From Hirudinaria manillensis (taxonomy: Eukaryota; Annelida; Clitellata; Hirudinida; Hirudinidae): a stretch of 64,000 nucleotides of DNA. Within the stretch, counting starts at the first letter, position 1; each line of letters starts with the position of its first letter. Shown piece after piece: positions 1 to 62,460 of the stretch. Position numbers and translations under genes: made by a program. The stretch spans positions 4,458,501-4,522,500 of the forward strand of contig CM067536.1 in the NCBI GenBank assembly GCA_034509925.1. Direction: 5' to 3'. The notes below the pieces were generated by a model. That model made no database searches. It was given only the letters and a program-made list of their open reading frames with translations, and was not told the DNA's origin.

Positions 1-2400
1 GTTTCATTTTATTTAAAAGTTATTTGCAGAGTTAAAAAAATATTATTATTTTGAGGTAGCTCAACGACAGTTCACTCATAATAGAATATAGGCACAGTTT
101 CTGAAGTCGGTCCACAATCTCCGCATATTTCATAATTAGCAATAATTTAACTATTAAAACTGTTTCTTACTTATAGAAAGAAGCAAAATATATATAATGA
201 TGTACACATAATCTGATATACCTGTTTAGACACTTAACTGCATTTGTAGCCTTAAAGTCATTTCTTTGAGTCAAAATCAAGAGACGTCTGCTGTATTTGT
301 TTCGTTGAGCTGCCTGAGAATCTCTTAACGCTCCATACCACTGTTTCATTCTGAAATTAAATATTGCTCAAATTACATGGCTCACTTCAATAACAAGAGA
401 TATTTTAGGTTTTATTTAAATCTCCCTAATTATTTATTGAATTAATAACAGAATCATTTGTTAATACAAAAATTAAAAAGCACGATGTTCCAACATGAAA
501 TAGATATATCATGACTAAAATCAACTGCTGCCTAGTTTCTCGATAAGGACACTCTTTTATTGATCCCGCTCGTTTATGTAGCAGGTATAAATCGCTAGTA
601 TCCGACAAATATGGATCACCCCATGGTTATCAGCATCTTTAGCGAGTTCAGTATCCGGTCGTTCGCCTTCATCCAGCATCTTCTTCCCTCCCTTTCCAAT
701 ACTTCTCGCAAGGTTCCTCCCCAGTGGACGTTCCTTACAACATGAAGCATCAACTTTGGTCTAGTTTTCAACAGAAACCAGTGACACGAACTACCATTTC
801 TTCCATGAAATTTCAGAATCTTTTTCAGTATTGCCCCTGTCATGCTCTTTCTCTTCTGGCAGAGCTCTTAATTTGGCATTCTACACTAGCCCTACCTACT
901 ATTGCAACTCAGCCTTTAGGCCTCTCGGATTTGGGACTCATTCCTTCAATTTTCGATTAAGCCAGGGAATGGTGAACCCTGCTGGATGAAGGTCTTATGT
1001 TCAAGTAAGCTATTAGAAAAGAAATAACACCATGACTTGCTAAACCACTGCATTTGATCTTTGTGAGATTTTGAAAGAGGAGTGATATGAAAAATGTTTG
1101 TAAAAAGGTGATTCCTTTATCCTTGAAAATAATTTACTGAGTTAATGATACTTCCGATAACATGAATTATCCAAAGTATCTAAAAAAAATAAGAAAAAGT
1201 CTGAAAAATAAAAGTTCATTTTAATATATTGAATATAAATTGAATTCAAGAAGTAGGTTCACATTGTTGGTAACTATGGTATCAATATTTTTGACGCAAA
1301 GTAAAAAAAATTGATGATAATTTTCAGCATTTGGAGTAGCTGACTCGTCTACGATGCTGATTGGGATGTTGGCGGCTAAAATATCGCCGGTCGCAAAAAA
1401 AGTAACAGTGATAAAAAAAAATAGCTTCGCTTTGTTTCTTCTTGTTTCTTGTTTCGTCCTTCACATGCCCTTTCGTACAGGTTGTCTTTTTCAGCCTTTG
1501 ACAAAGTGCTGCCATATCATTCTTTTCTGAAGATACTTTTGCCTTACCAGTTAATTTGTTATGAGGATTCATAGAAATTTCATAAATCTGTAACCTGATA
1601 CCATAATTGCACATCAGTCGTCATTTTCTTCCAGTCAGAACAGGCAACACTGACTAACCCAATGTATAGACTTATATTGACCATTAATATTTGTTACTGG
1701 TAAATCAGCTGAATGCTTGTTATAAAGTATGTTAAATCACTGATAGATTGATCAGACTATATTGTTTCCTGCTGATTTATCTTAAGACTGTAGCGGTAAC
1801 TCAAGAGTGACGATATTTCAAGTGTATTCAAACTAATCTTCGGACAGTAAAGACGTGTACATGACGAAGGGCAACCTAAGAAATAAAGTGGTCTGATGTC
1901 CATACAATATTCCACACCAGAGAATAACCTGCGAATGAAAAAATATAAATCAAATAAAAAAATCAGTCAGGTTTGATAATCGACCCCTCGTCAGATGGGA
2001 ATGGAAGAGAAATTCCGTCTAACGAAAAATTGTGGCATGTTGGCGTTCTGACTTTTCACGAAGAGTTAAAGAGTATTATACCTGCTTTAGATGCTGGTGG
2101 TAGTGTGAAAAATGGAGTTTCAGTTAGAATACCTCGATGTAGGTTTGAGTATGATGAGAGTCGTTGAAAGTACTAATTTGTAAAGTTTTAAAAGTTTTTT
2201 TTAAAGTGCTCAGTTTTTCTTCTAATGTAATGATTTTTTTGTGTTTAGAAGGTATTTCTGTAAATGGTTTATCGTCGGTCCAAATTTTAAATGTTTTTTC
2301 AAAAATTAAATTTTGGTGAAGAAACTTGATCCATATTCCGAAAATTGAAATATTACGTAATTTCAAATTGTAGGACCAAGTTGAAGAACCGAATATAAAA
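1..2400. other. No recognised gene; two weak coding candidates
   Basis: I see no gene here that I can name. Two stretches might be coding. On the minus strand at about 348-247, an open segment follows an acceptor-like ttaatttcag and ends before a gttaag donor; it encodes a basic peptide starting MKQWYGALRDSQAAQRNKYS. On the plus strand at 1973-2167, a 64-residue frame contains HVGVLTFHEELKSIIPALDA and ends in TGA just upstream of the synaptotagmin. Neither has a domain I recognise. A short motif near 1326 (agctgactcgtct) recurs near 23332 and 26823, so part of this stretch is dispersed repeat. Confidence 0.3.
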
Positions 2401-5400
2401 ATGTTCTGTGTGGGAGATTTTATTATAATCGGCTTTCTGATAGGTGCATGTTGTCTATTTATTTTCGTTATCATTATTGTGCGACGGATATTATTCTTTC
2501 GATATGACAAGAAGCAACAGCAAGATTCTCTTGGCAAATCTGTGGTGAAAAACGAAAAGAGCATATCAAATTCGGAAATGAAAGTTAAAAAAAAAACTTT
2601 CTTTGTACATGACAAAGATTTGAAAGATATTGTTGGTATGAAAGAAATCAATTGTGAATGCTATACATCTTCTTCCAAAGAGGTAATTACTTTTAATTAA
2701 TTAGTTGATTTATAAATAAATAAAAAATTTTAAATATTGATTAATTTTTATATACTTAATGATATAATAATTAGGGTATATTAAAAATACTTAAATATGG
2801 TTATCAATAAAATCTCTTTACCGTTCCGTAAACTCATTAAACGACGTAATGAACACTTCCACGCAAACTCCTATTAGGAGTGAAGATTTGGAAGTCCAGC
2901 ACCCTCGCTATGCCACTGAATTGGAAGTCAAACCTTGTCAGATATTTCGGGTTCTGCAATAAGAACTTCCCCAGACAATCGGTTCAAATAATCGGATCGA
3001 TGCTTTCAGTTTCCGGTCAAGCTAATTTGCAGTATATGGACTTCAAAAGAAAGGACGAAAGAAAAATCACTTAAATGATGGATCCAAGGAAAATTTGAAT
3101 ATTTCTAGCATGTCATAGAATGTCACGCTAAGCTCGAGCTTCGTTTACTTTCTCAATCGGAATAACACCAGAGACTTTCGTTAAGCTGCCATTATTTATG
3201 ATCGTTAAATGTAAAAAAAGAGAAGTCCTTGAAGTTGGCAATTGTTTAGTATAGCACTAAACTCAAAAAAATGAAACAGCCCAGATAGCAAAGATTGATT
3301 GGGCCAGCGCCGGTATTTTGATGGCAATTCGGATCAGCCGAGCGAACGTAGTGGCCGCACGGCCGGTCGTCGGCCGACTGAGGTGGTCCAATTCCGGCAA
3401 GCCGGACACTAAATCGGTCTCCGCCCCCATCTCAGTTTTGATTGTTTTCACAAAAAACTAGTTTCTAATTTTAGCACCACTTTATTGAAAAAGTAACAAA
3501 AAAGGTAAAATATATTAGAAGAAATATGAGGTAAAATTATTGCACATAATAAACAAATACATATAATGTTTACGAAAATGTTTTATTTAACAATCTTTTA
3601 GTGCGGCCCCCATTCCTATCTGGGGCATTTCTCAGCCAAAGACGCACTTCCTTCTCCACTTCAGAGTCTGTCACCTTTACAGATCCATTGACAGAGTGAA
3701 TGCTCCGAACTGCATCTAGTTGCAATATGTTAAAGCAATTAAAAATTGAAAATGAGATTGGGGAGAACAGAATATTTACCAAGTATAGCTTGGAACATGT
3801 TTGTTCCACTTAACCCAATCTTCTCCAATTTGTTTGTCCATGCGATCCTTAAGGATAATTCATGGGTCAGCAGTCCCCTCAATATTCTGTGAACAGAATC
3901 TTTAATGGTGATCCCACCAACTAATGAGAATTTTGCAACCTGTAGTTTACAATATTACTTTTAGTAGACATAATAGGAACAAAACTCAATCAAAACCTAC
4001 AAATAAGCCATAACAATTTTCATCTGGAAGTTTTGCTTCCAATTTCTTAAAATCATCCTCAAAGGAATTTGTACATCTGGGAGTTTCACACTCGTTGTGG
4101 TATTGGTTAAGACACCCGATGAACTTTTCATTGACTCCTTTAATTCTGCATTTTGTCTGAGGAGTGCATCCATCTTCAAATTCATAGTTTCCACTGTCAG
4201 TGAAATTAGATTACTATTTAATCAAATTTAAAAGTGAAAAAAAATCAAGGAATATTACATAGTTCTATCAAAGCACCAAAATTTTGAGTGTGAATGGGCA
4301 TTGCAGTTGTTGTTTGGATGAAACTGGATGCCATCTTCCTAGAGTCTGGTATGTCGAACATAGTGTCATTCTGACTTTCACGAAATGATTCTGAAATGTG
4401 TGAATCAATGTTGCAGATAAAAATTATGTGAAATACATACAATATCTAAATTTACCAGTTTCATCCAAAGCCACACTGCAATCCTCACTGAAAGAAATAC
4501 CTTGTATTGATGGCTTTTCTGGATATATCCCTTAAAAAAATTACTAGCTATCAAGACCATTGCTTCTAAATTAAAACAAAAATCAACCATTTCTTGAAGC
4601 TAAGGCTGGTGGAAGTTTGGGGGTCGGTAAGGTATAATTTCTTTGGTGGCTGTAATGATTTATTTATACATTCATGGTAACTGACACATAAAATTTGCAA
4701 TAGATTTAGTTGTCAGAATAAGGCAAAATACTTTTTCTCTGCTTCTTCATCTGTTTAAAGATCTGCTGCAAACTTTCTCTCATGAATCTTCCTATAAATT
4801 CAAAATTTCAGTTTGAAATGTTTCACATAATAATTTGGTTTATATCCATGAAACAATCAGAAGGCAAAAGGAACCTTTTCTTAATTTCGTCATTAATTTC
4901 TTCCAACAGTAAATCGTGCTGTCTTTTGACACGTCTTCTGACCGCCCTCGCCGATCTACCCCAAGAATATCTACTACGCTTCATGTTTAAAGCGAGAAAC
5001 CAAATGTTACAAAATAAGATTACCTTTTTGTCTTGGTCACAAACTCAAAACAGAAGGAAGTAGCTGTTATACAACATAATTATGTAACTATAGTTATGTA
5101 CTACATAATATGTATGCATACATATATACATCGGATCCCAATATGCAGAATAGTAGCTGGCTGCCGTACGTCGGCCGAGTGTAACCTTAGCGGTCATGTA
5201 GCGCCTCGATCCGATTAGTAGCCGGCTGTCGTACGTCGGCCGAGTTTAACTGGTCCTGCATAAGAATTGTAATAGGCCCGATCCGGCCATGCAATGCCGG
5301 CTCCTAACCATTTTCCGGTCCGGATATCATTGCTGTCTGGGAGAGAATATGCCAACAAATTTATAAGGACTGAATAGCAAAATATAGCTTAATTTTCAGG

Positions 5401-20060: not shown

Positions 20061-20266
20061 GGATCAATTGACCTCTTTGGCAATATTCCTGAGTGAATAA
20101 TTTGCTCATCTTGAGGCCCTCTCCTTTTAAAATAATATTTTGCCTCCAGCCATTTATAAATAATGTTTTTAAAAACTTCAAATGTTTTTTTGTATTTTCA
20201 CTATTTTTATACCAATGTTATTTGCATAAAAAAAAATTTCATGTAACTAGCAACAATTTCATGTTT

Positions 20267-23200
20267 ATTAGTCATCATGACTCTTGGATATCCCTGAAAT
20301 GCCATTTTGCATTTTTTATAAGTTTTAATCATCCACATTACTTGAAAGTTTATTGGCTTTTTGGGGACATCGTAAAAGGACATAATATAAATTGAACTGA
20401 AATTCTGCTGAATCATGAAAAATTGATCAACATTGGACTTATAGTTAGCAAGTTTTCAGAAAATTATGTGGTATCCCTTTGGTTTCTGTGCACATCCATG
20501 ACAGAAAAGCGGACAACCCTTAGATCTGGACAGGAGAATATCATTTAGGAATTAAATGCATAAAAAAGTCCCAGGAATTAAGTTTTATACTAAAAAGGGC
20601 AATTTAATAAAATCATGAAATAAAAATTTGGTTTTCATATAATTTAACAGATTTCATTTGTAACCTTTTATTGAATGTGGCGTGATCTTATTACAATGAA
20701 TTTCTTTTTCTTTCTTCCACTTTAGGACTAGTAACGAAAAATGATGCCTTCTAGTCATGCTAGTCGCCTTAAAAGGCACAATAACTTTTTAAATTTGGAG
20801 AAAAAATCACATCTGTTGAAATGCTGATAAACATTGATGAAGCAATTCGCTCAGAAAGTTGAGACTGTCCCTGTGGCTGATCCATAAACTAAAAGTATAG
20901 TGGGAGATTTTGTCATGATGGATGATGCCGACAGTCCATGGCCCACCAAGTGACAACCTGCTGTGAATTACCAGACCACAGAGAAAACAATGGTGATAAT
21001 AGTTATGAAATGCCTATGTCAAAGCTCATCATCACCGGATCAGTGCTAGCTTTCATGAAAAAATTGATGCATCCCACTGTTCACTGGGGAATGAAGATTT
21101 ATATATAATAGGTGTTGGACACATTTGTTGCTCTGATTGAAGAAGAACAGACTCAATAAATGAATACTTTTCTCAATTGTAACTAATATCTATAAAATGA
21201 AAAAAAGTAGGTAAAGGCGATGAATAACTATGTTATTACTGTAAATGGCGGCTGATTATCTTAATTAGGGCTTATTTTTGAGGAAATGCAGTACATACCC
21301 ACAAGAATTTGTGCTACCAGCAAATTTTAAAAGTTATTCTTGAAATCTGTTCTGCTGAATTGTGAAAAATGTAAAAACTGTAGATGATTTAGAGTTCAAC
21401 ATACAAGCATGTACTAATGTCTGCTATATCAGTGAGTGATTCCTTTCATACAGGATTATTTTAATCTTAGGTCCAAGCTTCCAAGTTCACCTAGATAAAA
21501 AAAATTGATCCATGACCATATATGATCATAGTTTATTGAATCAATTAATCATCCAAGTTCAGTTCACAAACATGTTTTTCTCATTAAATGCATAAATATC
21601 TAATACAACAATCAGAAATAGTAATAATACATTTAATGTAAATATTAAATGCATTTTAACCTTGTAGATATTACATACCTCAAATATTATATTTGAATTA
21701 TATGAATTTGTAAATATCTAATCTTAAAATGCAATTTTATTAATGCTAAAAATTTAGAAACTGATCTCATAAATCATTAAACTTTGTTAATAATGTCTTG
21801 ATACAACAAACAGAGATAATGATATATTAAATGGAAATATAAAATACATTTTAACTTTGTATACATTACATACCTCAAATATTATCCTTGAATTATATGA
21901 AAATTCCATTCACGAATATTTAATCTTAAACTGTTATTTTATTAATGATAAAAAGTTATAAACTGATCTCATAAATAATTAAACTTTGTTAATAATGTGA
22001 AACAATGTCTTGAAAATGTTGAAAAAAGTAAAGGATCTAAAGTTTGTTGCTGTTTAGTCGTTTTAGAGGATGTATACCCCATAAACTGAACTGTCTTCCA
22101 CAAAGTACTTTTCAGAAAAGTACTTAATAATTTAAGCATTCCTACTTTTTTTTTTTACTTTTGTTCCAACGGTACAATTAAGCTGCAATTATTTTACAAA
22201 TGTCCAACCTGTTGCCATTGTCTTGATGCAAATCCGCGGCTTTCCTTATTCTGAGTTCTTTCGCATTGTCAAGAAAAAAATTAACAGAATTAAAATAGAT
22301 TCCTAAAGGAGATGATGCCGGAAGGTGTGAAAATTATTTCCAATTTGAACTATCGTCCACCAATGGTTCTCCCCGTCCCCTCATCACGTTTAGAAGCCAC
22401 AAGGCAGGCTATCGGACTTGAACAAGAGACCTACCGCTTTTAAGCGGAGAGGCATGCTTACTACAATAGATCAGCGGCTATTATTAGAAGCCGGCGCCTG
22501 TCCCATTCCAGCTGCGCTCTCATGACTACGTCTCTGTAGCTCTATACACTTGCCTGCGCTATTTGCAGTAGTCGCTTCAAAAAGCAAACGATTTTTATCA
22601 CAAAGTTCTACCTTCATCCATTTCTTAAGGACTGACCAACTTAGGTCTACTTATATCGAACTAACTAATGCAAATTTCCGGTTATTTACATTGAATTACA
22701 GCAAAAGATGTCTTCTTACACCCTTTCTGCAAAATGAATGTACATGCTTGAAAGTGTGGCAATCGTCGAAAATAAAACAACGGGCGAAGAAAGTCGTAAA
22801 TGGCCCATTCACTCGCTTGCAAAACTGGGTCAAAGACAAGGCGCCATGAATGCTTTCCAAGAATGATTTTCTCAATGAGCCAGCAGTTGAAATTCTGGGC
22901 CAGACTCATATCTGGTTAATGATCCAGATATTTCAGATATTTATCGTGTACAAAATCAACCTGAGCACCATCATCCTTAATTAATTAAAATTCTTCAATT
23001 CGGCTATTCAGGGTCAATTTGGCAAGTTAATCTCTATGATTCCGACCGAGAGATTCAACCTTGGCATATTTAAAAGGTATGCAACTCGAATCGGCCCCGC
23101 ACACATGCTTGTTTTCATTCCTTTCTGACGCCGTCATGATTTATATTTGGGCTCGACCTAGTTTCGAAAATCGGGTCATACTATTTTCTCTAGATTCGAC

Positions 23201-23589
23201 CCGGATACAATCACAAGTTTGACCTGTTATTGTACTTATATCAATTAAGGGTTTTTCCTAATTTCTAAAGTGCTTATGTATTTTTTTTAAATACCGATAC
23301 TTTTTGGCGATTTTTCGGCTATGCACTTGGAGCAGCTGACTCGTCTGCCATTACTACATTATAGATTAATACGAAAACAACCTCAAATGCAAGCATACGA
23401 TTTTACTACAAAACTAAAAGAATATGACTTTTTCACCAATTCTATAATTCTATAGCCTCGTCAATATCAACTTCAAATGTTCGAACAAAGTGGTGAAAAA
23501 ATTCTGCCCCAAAAGAATAGTCTCCCGCTGCAATCCAGTAGGCAATCCAGTGACCTTGAAGTCCACCAAACGCCACTTTAATGAACTGA

Positions 23590-23622
<33 letters not shown>

Positions 23623-23750
23623 TCGATATTGAGGAAATAAACATTTTTTTATGTTCGGACATCCATTAGCCCTCGCGTGACCAAGTTAGAATAACTTACT
23701 CTCAGCTAAGGTACAGTTGCCCCCCCCCCCCCCAGATAGCAATAACATCC
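20267..23750. repeat. 3.49 kb tandem duplication, copy 1
   Basis: From ATTAGTCATCATGACTCTTG at 20267 to CAGATAGCAATAACATCC ending at 23750, the sequence is repeated almost base for base at 23754-27242. Differences seen are a few substitutions (for example TTTGTT versus TTGTTA context near 21783/25268, GCCGG versus GCGGG near 22317/25803), a three-base insertion near 26797, and length changes in the T, ATT and C runs. Content: AT-rich sequence with no gene I recognise, a tRNA-like stretch, an ATT microsatellite (about 23590-23620) and a poly-C run beside a transposon terminus. Confidence 0.95.
22395..22479 (-). repeat. tRNA-Leu-like sequence (SINE or tRNA pseudogene), copy 1
   Basis: Minus-strand sequence of 85 nt begins AGCCGCT and ends TGTGGCT, which can pair at six of seven positions as an acceptor stem. 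The middle CCGCTTAAAAGCGG resembles an anticodon arm with TAA. GTTCAAGTCC resembles a B box. The T and D stems do not pair well and the anticodon loop is one base short, so a working tRNA is unlikely; a tRNA-derived SINE or pseudogene fits better. Confidence 0.35.
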
Positions 23751-23753
23751 ATG

Positions 23754-26700
23754 ATTAGTCATCATGACTCTTGGATATCCCTGAAATGCCATTTTGCATT
23801 TTTTATAAGTTTTAATCATCCACATTACTTGAAAGTTTATTGGCTTTTTGGGGACATCGTAAAAGGACATAATATAAATTGAACTGAAATTCTGCTGAAT
23901 CATGAAAAATTGATCAACATTGGACTTATAGTTAGCAAGTTTTCAGAAAATTATGTGGTATCCCTTTGGTTTCTGTGCACATCCATGACAGAAAAGCGGA
24001 CAACCCTTAGATCTGGACAGGAGAATATCATTTAGGAATTAAATGCATAAAAAAGTCCCAGGAATTAAGTTTTATACTAAAAAGGGCAATTTAATAAAAT
24101 CATGAAATAAAAATTTGGTTTTCATATAATTTAACAGATTTCATTTGTAACCTTTTATTGAATGTGGCGTGATCTTATTACAATGAATTTCTTTTTCTTT
24201 CTTCCACTTTAGGACTAGTAACGAAAAATGATGCCTTCTAGTCATGCTAGTCGCCTTAAAAGGCACAATAACTTTTTAAATTTGGAGAAAAAATCACATC
24301 TGTTGAAATGCTGATAAACATTGATGAAGCAATTCGCTCAGAAAGTTGAGACTGTCCCTGTGGCTGATCCATAAACTAAAAGTATAGTGGGAGATTTTGT
24401 CATGATGGATGATGCCGACAGTCCATGGCCCACCAAGTGACAACCTGCTGTGAATTACCAGACCACAGAGAAAACAATGGTGATAATAGTTATGAAATGC
24501 CTATGTCAAAGCTCATCATCACCGGATCAGTGCTAGCTTTCATGAAAAAATTGATGCATCCCACTGTTCACTGGGGAATGAAGATTTATATATAATAGGT
24601 GTTGGACACATTTGTTGCTCTGATTGAAGAAGAACAGACTCAATAAATGAATACTTTTCTCAATTGTAACTAATATCTATAAAATGAAAAAAAGTAGGTA
24701 AAGGCGATGAATAACTATGTTATTACTGTAAATGGCGGCTGATTATCTTAATTAGGGCTTATTTTTGAGGAAATGCAGTACATACCCACAAGAATTTGTG
24801 CTACCAGCAAATTTTAAAAGTTATTCTTGAAATCTGTTCTGCTGAATTGTGAAAAATGTAAAAACTGTAGATGATTTAGAGTTCAACATACAAGCATGTA
24901 CTAATGTCTGCTATATCAGTGAGTGATTCCTTTCATACAGGATTATTTTAATCTTAGGTCCAAGCTTCCAAGTTCACCTAGATAAAAAAAATTGATCCAT
25001 GACCATATATGATCATAGTTTATTGAATCAATTAATCATCCAAGTTCAGTTCACAAACATGTTTTTCTCATTAAATGCATAAATATCTAATACAACAATC
25101 AGAAATAGTAATAATACATTTAATGTAAATATTAAATGCATTTTAACCTTGTAGATATTACATACCTCAAATATTATATTTGAATTATATGAATTTGTAA
25201 ATATCTAATCTTAAAATGCAATTTTATTAATGCTAAAAATTTAGAAACTGATCTCATAAATCATTAAACATTGTTAATAATGTCTTGATACAACAAACAG
25301 AGATAATGATATATTAAATGGAAATATAAAATACATTTTAACTTTGTATACATTACATACCTCAAATATTATCCTTGAATTATATGAAAATTCCATTCAC
25401 GAATATTTAATCTTAAACTGTTATTTTATTAATGATAAAAAGTTATAAACTGATCTCATAAATAATTAAACTTTGTTAATAATGTGAAACAATGTCTTGA
25501 AAATGTTGAAAAAAGTAAAGGATCTAAAGTTTGTTGCTGTTTAGTCGTTTTAGAGGATGTATACCCCATAAACTGAACTGTCTTCCACAAAGTACTTTTC
25601 AGAAAAGTACTTAATAATTTAAGCATTCCTACTTTTTTTTTTACTTTTGTTCCAACGGTACAATTAAGCTGCAATTATTTTACAAATGTCCAACCTGTTG
25701 CCATTGTCTTGATGCAAATCCGCGGCTTTCCTTATTCTGAGTTCTTTCGCATTGTCAAGAAAAAAATTAACAGAATTAAAATAGATTCCTAAAGGAGATG
25801 ATGCGGGAAGGTGTGAAAATTATTTCCAATTTGAACTATCGTCCACCAATGGTTCTCCTCGTCCCCTCATCACGTTTAGAAGCCACAAGGCAGGCTATCG
25901 GACTTGAACAAGAGACCTACCGCTTTTAAGCGGAGAGGCATGCTTACTACAATAGATCAGCGGCTATTATTAGAAGCCGGCGCCTGTCCCATTCCAGCTG
26001 CGCTCTCATGACTACGTCTCTGTAGCTCTATACACTTGCCTGCGCTATTTGCAGTAGTCGCTTCAAAAAGCAAACGATTTTTATCACAAAGTTCTACCTT
26101 CATCCATTTCTTAAGGACTGACCAACTTAGGTCTACTTATATCGAACTAACTAATGCAAATTTCCGGTTATTTACATTGAATTACAGCAAAAGATGTCTT
26201 CTTACACCCTTTCTGCAAAATGAATGTACATGCTTGAAAGTGTGGCAATCGTCGAAAATAAAACAACGGGCGAAGAAAGTCGTAAATGGCCCATTCACTC
26301 GCTTGCAAAACTGGGTCAAAGACAAGGCGCCATGAATGCTTTCCAAGAATGATTTTCTCAATGAGCCAGCAGTTGAAATTCTGGGCCAGACTCATATCTG
26401 GTTAATGATCCAGATATTTCAGATATTTATCGTGTACAAAATCAACCTGAGCACCATCATCCTTAATTAATTAAAATTCTTCAATTCGGCTATTCAGGGT
26501 CAATTTGGCAAGTTAATCTCTATGATTCCGACCGAGAGATTCAACCTTGGCATATTTAAAAGGTATGCAACTCGAATCGGCCCCGCACACATGCTTGTTT
26601 TCATTCCTTTCTGACGCCGTCATGATTTATATTTGGGCTCGACCTAGTTTCGAAAATCGGGTCATACTATTTTCTCTAGATTCGACCCGGATACAATCAC

Positions 26701-27078
26701 AAGTTTGACCTGTTATTGTACTTATATCAATTAAGGGTTTTTCGTAATTTCTAAAGTGCTTATGTATTTTTTTTAAATACCGATACTTTTTGGCGATAAT
26801 TTTTCGGCTATGCACTTGGAGCAGCTGACTCGTCTGCCATTACTACATTATAGATTAATACGAAAACAACCTCAAATGCAAGCATACGATTTTACTACAA
26901 AACTAAAAGAATATGACTTTTTCACCAATTCTATAATTCTATAGCCTCGTCAATATCAACTTCAAATGTTCGAACAAAGTGGTGAAAAAATTCTGCCCCA
27001 AAAGAATAGTCTCCCGCTGCAATCCAGTAGGCAATCCAGTGACCTTGAAGTCCACCAAACGCCACTTTAATGAACTGA

Positions 27079-27111
<33 letters not shown>

Positions 27112-27242
27112 TCGATATTGAGGAAATAAACATTTTTTTATGTTCGGACATCCATTAGCCCTCGCGTGACCAAGTTAGAATAACTTACTCTCAGCTAAGG
27201 TACAGTTGCCCCCCCCCCCCCCCCCAGATAGCAATAACATCC
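23754..27242. repeat. 3.49 kb tandem duplication, copy 2
   Basis: Head-to-tail copy of 20267-23750. Three bases (ATG) separate the two copies. Unlike copy 1, this copy runs on beyond its end into the GC-rich subterminal part of the transposon terminus (GGACCGGTTGAAAGCCGGC from 27243), so copy 2 keeps the ancestral right flank and copy 1 keeps the ancestral left flank. Confidence 0.95.
25881..25965 (-). repeat. tRNA-Leu-like sequence, copy 2
   Basis: Same sequence as the 22395-22479 stretch, carried along by the 3.49 kb duplication. Confidence 0.35.
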
Positions 27243-27345
27243 GGACCGGTTGAAAGCCGGCTTATATGGCCCGAAATTGTCGATTATAATCAGGCGCAGA
27301 TCAGTTTCAACCAGGCCGATGTATGGCATGCAGCTATTAGCCGTA
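27209..27345. mobile_element. Isolated terminus of the GC-rich inverted-repeat element family
   Basis: A poly-C run is followed by CAGATAGCAATAACATCCGG and ACCGGTTGAAAGCCGGC, closely matching the right terminus of the 3284-5346 element read inward (CAGACAGCAATGATATCCGG). GC-rich sequence continues to about 27345, then AT-rich DNA resumes. No opposite terminus was found nearby. Confidence 0.55.
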
Positions 27346-27740
27346 TCGACGCAAAAATATTAAAATGAAACAAGAAACTATGTGACTAATAAAATAAAAA
27401 CAGCCTTCTTTAACTAAAAAAAATCCAAAACCTATTCGCAGCTAATTCTACATTTAACAAAGATTTTTTACTAATATTTCTCTTGTTATTTATTTCCGAG
27501 TTTTAATTTAAATGCCTCGTCTGTCTGCAAAAAGCTGTAAAAGTAGAAACTTTTCAATCATTTGCCATGTACGTCGTAGTTTTTTCTACAAATAATTGAA
27601 GAGGTTTAAATTATTCAAACTCGTTGGTTTGATGACAAAATTGAAGCAATAGTGTCTATTGACCATCACATTTGTCATCGGCAGGTAATTTAAAATCAGT
27701 TAGGAATTGTCACAATCCTGAAAGTAATTGGACAAGATAT

Positions 27741-27959
27741 TGTAATAACCCGGGGTCCTCAAACTAATTATAGAAGGTCAGGTTTATTGAAAGTGTTCAG
27801 ATGACTTGGAAGATATACAATGCCTAATTGTCTAAGTCTTGGAATCTGTTATTTCTCTTACTCTCCTCCTTTTCGAGATAACTATTTGTCGAGGTTCATT
27901 TCCAAAGAGTCTGAATAGTACCCTGAACATTAATTAATTATTAAATTAATTAATTAGCA
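27741..27959 (+). repeat. LTR-like repeat, copy 1
   Basis: Begins TGTAATAACCCGGGGTCCTC and ends TTAATTAGCA, with ATAT on both sides as a possible 4-bp target duplication. An inverted, about 85% similar copy lies at 51679-51886. Similarity continues a little past the CA end (ATATAATT and ATTCTTTAATTA), so the true boundary may be longer. TG...CA ends suggest an LTR. Whether it belongs to the gypsy pol at 28611 is unproven. Confidence 0.55.
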
Positions 27960-28610: not shown

Positions 28611-29995
28611 GCAGTTCCGATCAAGACAAGCAATCGACAAAACCCCCGTCCACTTCCTTTGGCTACAAGAGCAAACGCCAAGGAAATGATTAAAGAAATG
28701 CAAGACCAAGGGGTTATCGAACCGTCAAATAGCCCCTGGAGCTCACCGGTGGTACTCGTTAAGAAAAAAGATGGATCACTTCGTTTTTGTGTCGACTATA
28801 GAAAGCTGAACGAATTGACACTTAAAGACAGCTACCCTTTACCTAGAATCGATGATACTTTAGACACTCTCTCGGGATCAAAAATTTTTTCTACCTTAGA
28901 TCTCAAAAGTGGTTACTGGCAGGTAGAGTTACATCCTGACGATAAGGAAAAAACGGCTTTCTCGACAGGTGAAGGATTATGGCAATTCACTGTCATGCCG
29001 TTCGGGCTATGCAATGCCCCTGCAACATTTGAGAGATTAATGGAACATATACTAAGAGGACTCAATTGGAAAGTATGCCTAGTATATTTGGATGACATAA
29101 TTATTGTCGGAAAAACATTTGGAGAACATTTAGACAACCTCCGAGAAGTATTTAGTAGGATTAGAGAGGCAGGCATGAAACTGAGTCCAAAGAAATGCTT
29201 AATCTTTAAAAAGAAGTCAAATACCTCGGCCATATCGTGTCTTCCGAAGGTGTTAGTACAGATCCAGATAAAGTTGAGGTAGTAAAGAATTGGCCTGTAC
29301 CCAAAAATATCCAAGAACTTCAAAGTTTCTTAGGACTTTGTACCTATTACAGACGATTTATTGCCAACTTTTCCAACATCGCAAGAAGCCTTCATGAGCT
29401 TACTGTAAAAGGCAAGCCATTTATTTGGAACGACAGCTGTAAAAAAGCATTTGATACTCTGAAAGAAGCAATGACAACGGCACCGATCCTGGCATATCCT
29501 ATTCCCGGATTGTCTTTTATTCTCGACACATATGCCAGTAACTGTGGAATCGGGGCAGTCCTTTCTCAACGCGTCGAAAAAGAAGAAAAGGTCCTAGCAT
29601 TTTACAGCCGTTCACTGCCCAAAGCGGAACGAAACTATTGCGTAACCAGGAGAGAATTATTAGCAGCAGTGGAATCCATTAAACATTACCAAAAATATCT
29701 TTTGGGCCAGCCGTTTTTGTTGAGAACGGATCACGCCTCCCTGAGGTGGCTGCTAAACTTCAAAAACCCCGAAGGTCAGATGGCAAGGTGGATTGAAAAA
29801 CTACAGAGTTTTCAGTTTAACATTGGACACAGGAGAGGTCAAATACACAACAACGCTGATGCGCTATCACGACGTCCTTGTCAACTCACATGCAGACACT
29901 GCAGAAAAAAAAACAAGAAATCGAAGAATGTCGACAAATTCGCATCATGGCTCCCGAACCTTGGACGGAAAGCGGGTTATGAGATCTACAATTAA
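28611..29995 (+). mobile_element. Ty3/gypsy pol remnant (RT and RNase H)
   Basis: The frame opens right after an in-frame TAG (28608-28610) with a typical pre-RT stretch PLATRANAKEMIKEMQDQGV. RT follows: NSPWSSPVVLVKKKDGSLRF, FCVDYRKLNELTLKDSYPLP, STLDLKSGYWQVELHPDDKE, MPFGLCNAPATFERLMEHIL and the catalytic VYLDDIIIVGK. Near 29212 one base is missing, so the remainder (KVEVVKNWPVPKNIQELQSF onward) reads in another frame. RNase H is present with ILDTYASNCGIGAVLSQ and LLRTDHASLRWLL, ending in a HNNADALSRRPC tether motif. Integrase, gag and a clear 3' LTR are absent. Otherwise the frames are well kept, so the insertion is not very old. Confidence 0.92.
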
Positions 29996-50569: not shown

Positions 50570-53500
50570 TTGCGGTATCTGAAGATTATCAATAACTGTT
50601 TTGCACCAAATTCTAGAAACTCAACCATTGTTAGTACTGATACTCCTAGCCATAGACCAAGAACACCACCACAGTCGGAACAAAATTGTGCAATCTGCAT
50701 AAATTAGTAATTGAGGGATTGCTATAAACAAACAGTAAAAAAGATCAACAAATTGATGTAATTTTGCATTTAACTTAATAGAGTAAATTTTTCTGTCACG
50801 AAATGAAATACAGATCAAGTACGAAAAAAAAACCTTGAGTAATTCAGAGTCTCAAAACATCAAACTATATCGGATGTTCTTAGAGATTTAATTGCATTAA
50901 CTGAATTGCGCTTAAAAAACTTAATATCCCATTTGATATCTAAGTAAGTTTACCCGGGTTATCACAATATTTCAAGTAACATTATTTATTATATATGCAT
51001 AAAATCTACTGTTAAAACAAATTTCTAAGCTTATTTTGCAGGTTTCGCGATTGTACCAAAATGTACAATGGCACCTATTCCCAATAATATTATTATTCCT
51101 AGTTTTCGATTAAATTTTCACAAATGTTAAATTAAAAAGCGAATCTAAAATGTGCTGATAAGCTGGGTTTACATTACATCTAAACCATTAAACAAACGTG
51201 AAACAAAAGGCTTATGCAAAAAATATCTAATGATGACCTCGTAATCTGGTATTTCCTGAATAACATCAAAGTTGAAATCATCGTAATATATCTCAACTTT
51301 TACTAGCGTCTTTCTTAGTTCAGGAATTTTTATTGTAAATTTTCTTTGCACTGTTTCCATCAGAAAAGTCTACATTAACAAGTTGGTAAATTTATCAATC
51401 GATTGACTTCTGGGGTATTATAATCACGTATAAAAAATTTATAACCTGTTGTAAGTTAGCAGGCCATCTCCCATTTGTTTTGGTGATGATATAGTTTATA
51501 TCTCTGAAAAAATTAAGACAGCGTTTGGAATTTTTGAAACTTTCTTAGGCTTGTGATGGCAACAAATGGAGGAAAATTCTCTTTAAATCGAAAGTTGTAA
51601 AAAAAAAACGAAAATAGATTAAAAACAGGGGATATATTGTTGGATTCCTGGATGCAGATAATTAAAGAATAATTATATTGCTAATTAATTAATTTAATAA
51701 TGGTACTATTCAGTCTTTGTTTGTGAACCTCGACAAATAGAGAAATCTAGAAAAGCAGAGCGAGAATAAGAGAAACAGCAGATTCCAAGACGTAGACAAT
51801 TGAGCATTGTATATCTTCCAAGCCATCTGAACACTTTCAATAAACCTGACCTTCCATAATTAGTTTGAGGACCCCGGGTTATTACAATATAAAATATATT
51901 ATATACTAATAGTGCTCAGCCACGTGTTGCCGTGGTTCAATCTGATTAATTTTAAAAGAAGGAAATTTAGCTCTCATTTTCTAATATGTTTATTTTTACA
52001 ATTTAACCTTTGTTTGTTGGTAAACTATATTTTTAGTTGTTTCTTTCTCTCTATAAATGTTTTGTCAGGTTTTCCGACTAGAACAGGCAACATACGAGAA
52101 TCAGTCTGCCCCTGGATCTAAACCACATTGTCCCTGAGCTTTGTTTATTGTGATTTCAGACGCCAATCGAATTGGGCAATATCTTAGATTGAAATGACAC
52201 ATCCGTCGGAATCATGGAGATGCGAGGTATGGACACAGGACCTATGAAAGGTCCTGTCAAGATTGTTGTTTCTAGGTGCTTATTACCATTAGCTTTCACT
52301 GCAAGCCGTGTGCTGATCGATCGTTTTGTGGCCGGACACGCATATTTGTAATTAACGTGTGTACCTGTCGCCACAAAGTAAAATATTTCAGGCACGAATT
52401 TATTTCGTCCGCTGAATTCGATCGAGGAATTACAGGTGGTGTTTGCTCAGGCTCGTGATTTCATAATCTCCTGCAAGCAATATTACTGCATTTCCAAATC
52501 TTGCAATGAACGCTCCAGAGATTTTTTGTGCGCCATTTTGCATTCATCCCAAACAATAAGTTTGCATTTCTATAATAATTTTCTGTAAAAACGTCGGAAC
52601 CTTTGCACATAGGAGTTTCAATGAACTGCATGTTTAATCACAAAATTGTGACAAAACGAGAGCAGTTCTACCACCTGGTAGCGATGTCATCGCTACACCG
52701 GACGACGCAGGAGATAAGGCCACATCATTTCGGGATCGAACTGCTGCCAGAATTAGTTTAATTAGGAATGTTTTGCAGGCGGTGGAACAATTAAACATTT
52801 AAAAAGATTTCCCCAATCCCTTTATTGATAGTTTGCCTTATTCGTTCCTAATTGCCTTTATGGTTCGAGCGTTAACTTAGAAATGTTCGATTGCACATAT
52901 ATCAAAAGATCGTCCACGTTATAATTTTGTTCACCACGCAATTCCACATCGAAAGAAGCGGCAGCGGATAGATTCGGTGGTAGCATTCCCAATTGATTTA
53001 GAAATTTGTTCGCGATTTCCAAGCACAAATCTTCAATATATCTTCGTTATAGATTTCTGCTATGAAATCAATATTTCTATTTGAATACTTGTTGCATATT
53101 CTACGTGAAATATCTTCAGCTATATGCAATTTGGATTTCTCAATAATTCTGGAGATGAAGGAAAGCAGAAGGTGGCTTATGTAATTGCCATTGACAATTT
53201 TTCAATTGCTTTGAAATATGTTGGACCGGGCACATTTACCAACATGTGAAGAAAGAAACATTCCTTCGGGAGGGGGGGGGAAACTATATTTTTTAAAAAA
53301 GGTCTTTTATATGTTGTTCGAAAGATATCCACGTTTAATATAACTTAAATATTTCAATTAATTTTAAAATTAATAATGTAAAAGTCAAATAGAAGGATCC
53401 TCACCTGCATGGTTCTTGACAGCCGCACTTTATTGATAACTCGTTAAGCAAATTTTTTATTTCATTAACACAACGTCCTGTTATATAATAAACATTTGTT

Positions 53501-58954: not shown

Positions 58955-61900
58955 TTATGTTCCACTTAGTGGCAGGAATGGCAAGTCAAATGCCTCACAC
59001 ATCACCTTCAGTGAATCATCCTGCGCACGCTTCCTGAGCTGGTTCGCGTGGCGATGGAGCATTTTGCCGCTTGCCTCCACTAGGTAGACTTGACGTCCCT
59101 GTCTGCGCCTCATCCATCCCTGTATCCACTTCGGGTGACTCGGTTCCTTGTAGTCTCTTACGTTCACCACGATTAAGAACATCACTCCTTCAATCGGGCC
59201 GGCAAAATCAATATGGACCCTTTCCCAGGCACAATCCGGTTTCGGCCATGGCGTCAGTTCGTTCCTGACAGGCATCTTTGCAGCCAACTGGCATGAACTG
59301 CAAAGTCTTACTCTGTCTTCGATGTCCCTGTCAATTCCTTGCCAGTAAACGTGCAGATGAGCTAGCATTTTCATTCTGGTTGTCCCAGGATGTCCCTCGT
59401 GCAGCATCTTCAAAATTCGGCCTTGCAGGGCTGATGGGATCACGGCTCGTGTTCCCATGAAGAGTGCACCCTCATGGACTGACAAGTCTGTAGAACGGCT
59501 GTGGAAGGCGTGCAGAGTCGAACCAGCCCGGAAACAAGGCCATCTACCCGTTCTTACACTTTCGACAACCAACTTTAGCTCGGAATCTTCCTCAGTCATC
59601 CTCTGAATATCCTCCTTTGTGACTGGCAAGTTTCGGATGACATCACTCTGAACTGCCTTGACATCCCTTTCGATCTTCGCAATGACGATGTCTTCATCTT
59701 CTGGCAGCTTCTTCGTAGCGATGAGACGGGACAACGCATCGGCTTGACCAAAGTGAGTGGATCGCCTATACTCGATGACAAAATCATACGCAAGCAAAAC
59801 GAGTTCCCATCGTTGGAGCCGATTTGCTGAATGAGCTTATATACCAACCTTGGATCCGAAGATCGAAAACAGTGGCTTATGATCAGTCAGCAACAGGAAG
59901 CTTCTGCCGTATATGTAGCGATGAAATTTTCTTACCGCAAATACTAAGGCCAGAGCTTCTTTCTCGATCTGTCCGTAGTTCTTCTCTGCCTTGGTGAGAG
60001 ATCTACTGGCGTGTGCGATCGCCTTCTCCGTGCCGTTCGGTAAGCGATGAGAGATGACTGCTCCCACTCCATAGTCACACGCGTCCGCAGCAACGACGAT
60101 GTCCAGTGCAGGGTCGAAGTGCGTCAACAACAGATCAGACTGCAACACTACCTTGAGCTTGTCCAAAACTCTCTGGTGTTGAGCAGTCCACACGAATTTG
60201 TCTTCTCTTTCCAGATCGTCCAGGAGGCCTCTCATTGAACGCACATCTGGCACAAAAGACGAGTCGTAGCTTATCATACCTAAGAACGATTTCAGCTGCT
60301 TTTGATCCTTAGGCGCTGGCATTCCGATAATTGCTTGTATTTTCTCGAGATCTGGTCGACGGCCATCTTTTGAAACCACGTGTCTCAAGAAGTTGATTTC
60401 AGGTTATGCAAAGGAGCACCTCCATTCTGACGCGGAAACCATAATCTGCAATTCTTTCAAACAAAGCCTGGACGTTATTGTTGTGCTCTAGAATTGTTGA
60501 TCCTGTCACGATGACATCATCAAGATCTGCCGCACAGCCATTAAGTCCTGTGATCATTCGATCCATGGCTTCTTGGAAAATGCCAGGTGCGCATTTGACT
60601 CCGAAGGGTAACCGCTGGTACTGGAACAGGCCCTTGTGTGTATTTATCGTCACCAGTTCCTTCGAGTCATCTTCGACTTCCATCTGCAAGTATGCGTCTG
60701 CGAAGTCGATCTGGGTAAACCATGCGCCTTGGTTTAGACGAGCGAAGATTTCGTCGGGTGTCGGCAGAGGGTGACGGTGCATCTCGAGTGCTTCGTTTAA
60801 TCCTGTCTTGAAATCAGCACAGATTCGGACTGATCCGTTCTTCTTGGCCACTACAACAATCGGGGCAGCCCAATTGCTATAATCCACTTTCTTCAAGACT
60901 CCTTGTTGCACTAGACGCTCCAGCTCTGTGTTGACTGCTTCCTCCCGAGCGAACGGAATCTTCCTCTGTCGGCTAAAGGTCGGACGAACTCCCTGTCTTA
61001 CAATCAACTGTGCTCGAGTCTTGCATTTGCCCAACTCCTCTTCGAAAACATCTGGGAACCTTTCAGCCTAACTCTTGGCAAGTTGTCTCCCTTCTTCTTC
61101 TGGCTTCTGCTCAATTTTGCAGCAGATGGCGTTGAAGGCTTTCTGTAGAGGTGGCAGCTGATTCATCCACTCGATGCCCAACAGTTGATCTACGTTTTCA
61201 GCCACATAGTAGCGACCGTGGCCTGAAAATCCTCCGCAGGTGAACTTAACATCAAATTGACCCAGGACCTCAATCGGCATTCCATTTGCAGCTCCCAGTG
61301 AAGTCGTCGTTCCTTCCAGAGATGGCGAACCTATCTGCTCCCATGCGTCTCTGCTTATTATCGTGACGTCTGCACCAACTGCATTCTGACCTTGGTTTCT
61401 CCGGAACTAACTTCGGCGTACCTTCGATTGGTCCTGAGATCTGTGTTAATTTTTCTGACTCTCCCCTTGAATTTCGATTCCTTTCTGTGGCAGTCCTTCT
61501 GTGGGCAATCCTTCTTGAAATGTGACAAGGATCCACCAATGAAGCAGGCACCCTTGGACGATTCTCGAGGATTTTCCTTGCTAGGGAAAATATGTCGAGT
61601 CTTCTTCCTCTGGTGGCCTCTTTGAACTGCATTCACAGCCTGTGCACCGTCTACCATGTCGGCGTCTTTCCTCAGACTGACAATGTTATCACACTCGTTT
61701 ACCATGTCTTGTAGAGTGCATCCTTCCTGCTTCTCCAGCTTGGACAGCATTCTAGTTCTGATATCGGCATACTTGGACCCAGTTAACGCAGTTATGTAGA
61801 TCAGGCATTTGAAATTTTCCACTGTCAGAGTGTCGATCCGAGCCAGCGTCACCATTCTATTTATCATCGTACCCAGTTTGCGGAACGAAGGGAAGAGGCA

Positions 61901-62460
61901 TGGCGTCGAATCTCCTCTTGAAAACTGAAACTTTGTCACCGAAAATGTCTTCCAAAGTTTCCTTCGTTTGCTCGTAGGACAAATCACTTGGAGACAGTGG
62001 CATGATGTGATCTGTAAAACTGTGGTATGCCTCTTCATTCAGCTTCGACACGAGTGCGCCTGTCTTGTCTGCATCCGATAGCTGCATTGCGTGATTTCCT
62101 AGGACTGCTTCAAACCGTCCCATCCACTTGGAAAAGGGTGTCCCAGACTCAGGATCATAACTAAACTGCGTTATCTGTCTCATGAGCTCCGGGAGTAGAT
62201 CTGATTTTCTTTCTGTCTCTGTGGCTTCTTTACACTGAGGTTTCAGGGACTGGAGCAATTGCAACAATGCCTCTTCCCTTCGACGGTTCTCCTCGTCTCG
62301 GCGGAGATCATTCTCACGGCGGCGTGTTTCTTCCTCGCGACGGCGAGTTTCCTCCTCCTCACGACGACGAATTTCTTCATCGCGACGGCGAATTTCTTCC
62401 TCCTCACGACGACGAAATTCATCGTCGATTTTCTTCCATGAACATCGTCATCATGGTCAA
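58955..62460 (-). mobile_element. Ty3/gypsy gag-pol remnant
   Basis: Read leftwards. Gag: a charged coiled coil made of RRREEEE-type repeats (about 62430-62285), then QFSYDPESGTPFSKWMGRFE; the zinc knuckle is damaged (CFIGGSLSHFKKDC lacks the second cysteine). Protease-region tail: VAENVDQLLGIEWMNQLPPL (about 61200). RT: AAPIVVVAKKNGSVRICADF, FTQIDFADAYLQMEVEDDSK, PFGVKCAPGIFQEAMD, with ADLDDVIVTG where YLDD is expected. RNase H: VVAADACDYGVGAVIS and LLLTDHKPLFSIFG. Integrase: HEGHPGTTRMKMLAHLHVYW, CSSCQLAAKMPVRNELTPWP, then VHIDFAGPIEGVMFLIVVNV; the remaining core is deleted and the frame jumps to a C-terminal domain (DYKEPSHPKWIQG). Stops and shifts occur near 60400 and 61070. Coding GC is much higher than in the surroundings. 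Confidence 0.92.

Follow-up and report, generated by a model that had tools for sequence, protein, structure and literature searches.

In the leech Hirudinaria manillensis, a 3.49-kb stretch of the genome is present as two adjoining head-to-tail copies whose edges share no joining repeat, and the right edge falls inside the GC-rich end (terminal inverted repeat, TIR) of a DNA transposon, beside a poly-C tract. We analysed it in a window of 64,000 nucleotides, the whole stretch of DNA that was studied (positions 4,458,501 to 4,522,500 of contig CM067536.1). With moderate confidence, we read it as a recent, real tandem duplication that arose without edge homology, through repair at the poly-C tract and GC-rich TIR, copying from the sister chromatid and end joining that left a 3-base filler. 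The parts of the duplication are as follows (window positions).

20267..23750, + strand: first copy of the unit (3484 bp), which closes with the outermost 20 bp of the transposon TIR (23731-23750)
23751..23753, + strand: junction filler ATG, 3 bp, part of neither copy
23754..27242, + strand: second copy of the unit (3489 bp)
23720..23733, + strand: poly-C tract of copy 1, 14 C
27209..27225, + strand: poly-C tract of copy 2, 17 C, which takes in the terminal CCC of the transposon
21603..21998, + strand: older internal tandem repeat, about 200 bp in two copies, which recurs in copy 2 at 25090-25485

Self-BLAST of the window returned a single dominant pair, 20267-23750 against 23754-27242, with 99.685% identity over 3490 columns, and the copies adjoin save for the ATG. 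This agrees with the earlier note on this DNA, which had described a near-identical head-to-tail duplication of about 3.49 kb, either recent or an assembly effect, with a handful of differences besides the lengths of simple runs. Global alignment places four substitutions in about 3484 aligned bases, at 21783/25270, 22319/25805, 22373/25859, and 23258/26744 (copy 1/copy 2), which supports a recent event. The indels are a T-run of 11 versus 10, the poly-C tract (14 versus 17), and, in addition to the run lengths that the note had listed, one ATA found in copy 2 only (26796-26798). Substitution between the copies amounts to 0.115% (95% interval 0.03-0.29%). Searching the 148.4-Mb genome, which returned the best-scoring candidates, gave one full-length match to the unit among the 44 matches listed, namely its own locus; the other 43 are either partial or due to dispersed or simple repeats, and the pair is far beyond chance. 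Among these matches, the unit appears to be otherwise single-copy and to belong to no repeat family. It has no recognised gene; its longest frame, the sole unit frame scanned, has no Pfam match, and the window gave neither an Rfam hit at gathering scores nor a tRNA in ARAGORN.

Near-identity of the copies, with run lengths making up two of the three indels, is also what an assembly error could leave if overlapping contig ends or two haplotypes had been joined head to tail. The mis-join that the note had offered as an alternative is nevertheless very unlikely. The assembly was built with NextDenovo from 23.80 Gb of HiFi reads with a mean length of 18.73 kb, as given in the available text of PMC10671345, and reads of this length exceed the 7-kb pair; if our assembly is taken as the one in that article, coverage is about 160x and, were all reads of mean length, about 90 would cover both copies plus 500 bp at either end. 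There is no N in the window or in 40 kb of its flanks, and the three junction bases are foreign to both copies. About 30 differences would be expected of joined haplotypes, versus the four seen, on the assumption that a pair of stretches on contigs C15 and C1 are alleles. That pair, C15:84726-87780 (L015) and C1:7244907-7247961 (L016), is 98.3% identical in opposite orientation over 2347 columns, with 20 mismatches (0.85%), and is either an unremoved haplotig or a segmental copy. Because of the 0.115% substitution and the gap-free surroundings, we consider the duplication to be genuine-looking, as a matter of argument rather than proof.

At the junction, the filler ATG and the C that precedes it repeat the CATG at 20260-20263 in the left flank. 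The junction may alternatively be read as a 1-bp microhomology (the shared C), with TTT deleted from CATGTTTATTAG. Either form is a mark of end joining or template switching, and a homology-independent duplication is recognised by direct, adjoining, near-identical copies whose edges share no extended homology and show a few bp of microhomology at most or a short filler. The leech pair has these features, with a 3-bp filler or else 1-bp microhomology and a 3-bp loss. Apart from the CATG, the left flank of copy 1 and the right flank of copy 2 are unrelated to the junction, so the arrangement is a simple head-to-tail doubling of a once-single stretch. Unequal crossing-over between flanking direct repeats is the usual textbook source of tandem duplications, and the available text of PMC3744419 calls it the prevailing model, but no direct repeat was found at the edges, either in the alignment of the copies or in 1 kb around each edge. 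The latter comparison gave five weak matches (the best 13 bp at E 0.035), none of which is a repeat that unites both breakpoints; an inverted 11-mer (E 0.43) overlaps the left edge, with its partner 140 bp beyond the right edge. Since neither edge has a joining repeat, unequal crossing-over drops out unless the repeats were lost later, and we find it hardly credible here.

The right edge, at 27242|27243, is 20 bp inside the TIR. Two elements in the window bear on what this end is.

27223..27699, + strand: GC-rich end of a DNA transposon, made up of the TIR and subterminal sequence; over these 477 bp it matches a related locus (L012) at 74% identity
3280..5341, - strand: related element with inverted ends on both sides, CCCAGATAGCAAAG at 3280 (+) and CCCAGACAGCAATG at 5341 (-)

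The true end of the transposon reads CCCAGAYAGCAA, and its terminal bases are fixed by the inverted ends on both sides of the element at 3280-5341. Judged by this comparison, the end at 27223 is a true TIR starting with CCC, of which copy 1 retains exactly the first 20 bases. The boundary is 18 bp from the CAG and 20 bp from the true end CCC, so the note had placed it correctly at about 20 bp inside the terminus, and the alignment confirms its description that copy 1 holds the terminal bases only and that copy 2 continues into the terminus. The terminus is also, as had been proposed, the end of a real repeat family. The TIR 24-mer has 31 genome sites at up to three mismatches, versus 0 for a reversed control pattern, and 17 of the 31 carry one identical 24-mer, which is three bases off the end at 27223. 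The 123-bp end region from 27223 has eight genome matches including itself, two of which reach the first 48 bp only. Among eleven aligned end copies, which include duplication-related ones (L042/L043 and L012/L014), CCC stands before the AGA core in nine, L013 has GCT, and L014 has CCT; L010 reads AGAAA. A 557-bp piece of the element at 3280-5341 has eight other full matches, seven at 94-97% identity and one at 88%, and the related TIR family looks recently active.

The element at 3280-5341 measures 2.06 kb and has inverted CCC ends. Elsewhere in the genome, matches to it are split at query positions 338|343 and 545|545 by extra sequence of about 165 bp and 1.1-2.4 kb, respectively; the copy in the window has therefore either lost internal sequence or is without introns. 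No Pfam match over the cut-off was found in ten frames from window 1324-4599 (- strand, mostly the element region) and one joined string. Ten frames of related loci gave two over-cut-off Pfam matches, HECT in L042 and DUF4773 in L010, and no transposase was found among these ten. The L010 locus also has a G-run of 17 (C1:8453275-8453291), located 26 bp outside another TIR of the family; no direct repeat of at least 200 bp was seen in its 3.1 kb.

A transposase could have made the duplication, either by cleaving the DNA at the TIR or within it, or through transposition of reversed ends. The short clean TIR piece in copy 1 together with the complete TIR in copy 2 would suit such an origin, as would the apparent recent activity of the related family (the 24-mer identical at 17 of 31 sites, and 94-97% identity at seven of eight). 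Most studied transposases cut at or close to the end of the element; here, the copies have no element between them, the breakpoint falls within the TIR, and there are filler bases, all of which make this origin improbable. Reversed-ends transposition of maize Ac yields direct tandem duplications in which the element sits at the junction, accompanied by 8-bp target-site duplications, and the smallest such duplication reported in the available text is 8157 bp (PMC3744419). The leech junction differs from these in that the transposon is not joined by its exact end and is represented by 20 bp of TIR, with an inner break and the filler, and the aberrant transposition suggested by the note is thus not supported.

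Cleavage at a distance from the end is described for P elements, which are cut 17 nt inside the TIR (PMC7776569, available text), versus the 20 nt, or 19 nt plus 1 bp of microhomology, retained in the leech. We rejected a P-element reading: counted from the true end CCC, 20 nt are left rather than 17; the two-ended copy at 3280-5341 has no 8-bp target-site duplication and shows AG/AG only (by eye, in one copy); and the likeness to the P head is within chance (13/20 from the CAG, 5/20 from the true end CCC), given that 11 of 4177 CA-starting 20-mers on the + strand of the window reach 13/20. The P-type transposase models PF12017 and PF21787 had 0 genome matches, which is weak because 14 control genomes were equally silent. 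A Helitron reading, raised by some ends that read CTGG/CTAG outwards, was rejected by eye; T does not follow, and the copy at 3280-5341 has inverted ends. It is a long shot that the leech TIR transposase itself cuts about 20 nt inside and that the freed TIR-tailed end primes 3.5 kb of copying from the sister. If so, a cut about 20 nt inside would amount to a transposon-triggered duplication with the TIR stub as its only scar.

The poly-C run that the note had placed beside the boundary is present in both copies, and in copy 2 it ends 17 bp before the edge. The 148.4-Mb genome has 181 runs of C or G that are 14 or longer (74+72+35, with both runs of the duplicated pair counted), and this rarity makes the proximity of the tract to the edge suggestive. 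The chance of one breakpoint within 18 bp of such a run is about 6e-5, a post hoc comparison made after seeing the case. The CCC of the TIR belongs to the poly-C run, and the tract and the TIR are therefore not independent signs. In folds with RNA parameters (146 nt each), the two TIR strands reach -33.2 and -44.2 kcal/mol and the left edge -20.0, which is weak evidence, as the folds stand without shuffles and the compared stretches differ in GC content. A 6-bp palindrome is centred on the right edge, a length that about 2% of positions in the window equal or surpass; at the left edge, the half-palindrome length is 1 and no special feature was found.

It is also conceivable that the duplication was likewise homology-independent and that its position at the TIR and poly-C tract is coincidental. 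This is a single event, the association was picked afterwards, and at one of the two edges, the left, we found no special feature. Against coincidence stand the scarcity of long C/G runs, the scarcity of TIR sites (31 at up to three mismatches), and the palindrome centred on the right edge, and we regard it as unlikely.

In the explanation that we favour, repair without homology at the right edge, the poly-C tract and GC-rich TIR probably provoked the error. The note had also suggested repair at a transposon end; the repair itself is plausible and is our best reading, and the causal role of the end is something that we infer. A break or stalled copying would arise at the poly-C tract and GC-rich TIR near 27242, and one strand would be copied across 3.49 kb off the sister chromatid. 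The over-extended strand would then anneal badly and be end-joined with a 3-base filler in the manner of polymerase theta, or there would be a template switch. The product would have copy 1 with 20 bp of TIR at its end, followed by the filler and then by copy 2 with the complete TIR. What the sequence shows is the duplication with its edges and filler, the lack of homology between those edges, and the low divergence; the pathway, the sister as template, and the TIR and poly-C tract as trigger are what we infer. Copying could have run leftward from a break at the TIR, or rightward from a break at 20267 with a halt in the TIR, and both directions would fit the scheme. Besides the post hoc choice of the tract and its overlap with the TIR, two points count against it: the 3-base filler is too short to prove templating, and a G-rich template would be expected to halt rightward synthesis to the left of the tract, whereas the break is 17 bp past it. 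Comparable events are described in C. elegans, in which helq-1 mutants gather tandem duplications of about 100 bp-10 kb with microhomology and occasional templated insertions; these are explained by a broken end that over-copies the sister, failed synthesis-dependent repair, and theta-mediated joining (PMC8654963, available text).

Other repeats occur in the genome. Among 72 of 73 loci scanned (287,925 bp; L001, which repeats the window, was omitted), direct repeats that are 200 bp or longer and 90% or more identical are found in L018, L019, L020, L021, L022, L028, and L058; the loci are mostly about 3 kb long and many overlap, so these counts give no base rate. Six of the seven repeat-bearing loci are contig starts, and several are arrays. 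L022, near the start of contig C12, has two copies of about 0.62 kb in a simple head-to-tail pair that is 98.1% identical, and in L028 two 1.59-kb copies at 99.7% identity lie about 7.7 kb from each other. CCCTAA repeats are present at 4 of 12 contig starts examined. Contig C10 carries a HECT-domain tandem array whose periods are 6.28 kb and about 7.5 kb and whose copies, where fully matched, share 97-99% identity. This array and the L022 pair are further near-identical tandem copies in the genome and count in favour of our reading. A second pair of TIRs in the same orientation (C10, 6276 bp apart) was rejected as a parallel case, as it is part of this array and the TIR is internal to the repeated stretch rather than at an edge of it. 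Multi-copy HECT-domain sequence is located at 1.76-1.77 Mb and 2.08-2.11 Mb of C10 and at 5.60 Mb of C8 (one copy's frame was scanned), and at least four HECT-domain copies carry a TIR fragment. Contig C23 (15,581 bp) has the gene order cox1-cox2-cox3-Q-nad6-cytb, an annelid arrangement. Within the window, pieces of retroelements at 28611-29995 (+) and 58955-62447 (-) have matches to reverse transcriptase, RNase H, integrase zinc-binding, and DUF7083 domains. An inverted pair of about 220 bp (27737-27952 and 51670-51890) is 86% identical, and its first member sits between the TIR element and retroelement frames.

The duplication is an ordinary type of mutation with an instructive edge, and no new system. 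It offers a base-level view of an animal tandem duplication without edge homology that has a rare C-tract and a TIR at one edge. One case proves no rule; should further duplications prove to have this type of edge, it would be fair to call transposon ends and C/G tracts hotspots of duplication in annelids.

Among known systems, cleavage of the P element with its 17-nt stagger (PMC7776569, available text) resembles the leech case in leaving a short TIR piece on the flank, and differs in the length of that piece (20 nt in the leech) and in the 8-bp target-site duplication, which is missing at the single two-ended leech element. Reversed-ends duplications of maize Ac/Ds, as the available text of PMC3744419 presents them, likewise consist of direct tandem copies with one edge at a DNA transposon, but they have the whole element and 8-bp target-site duplications at breakpoint junctions, whereas the leech junction keeps 20 bp of TIR. 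Theta-mediated duplications, described for C. elegans helq-1 and BRCA1-deficient backgrounds in the available text of PMC8654963, are the remaining comparison. Unlike them, the leech duplication is a single natural event, known here from sequence alone, in which a TIR and a poly-C tract mark one edge; like them, it is direct, falls within a size range of 100 bp-10 kb, and combines little or no microhomology with the small insertion that such duplications occasionally carry.
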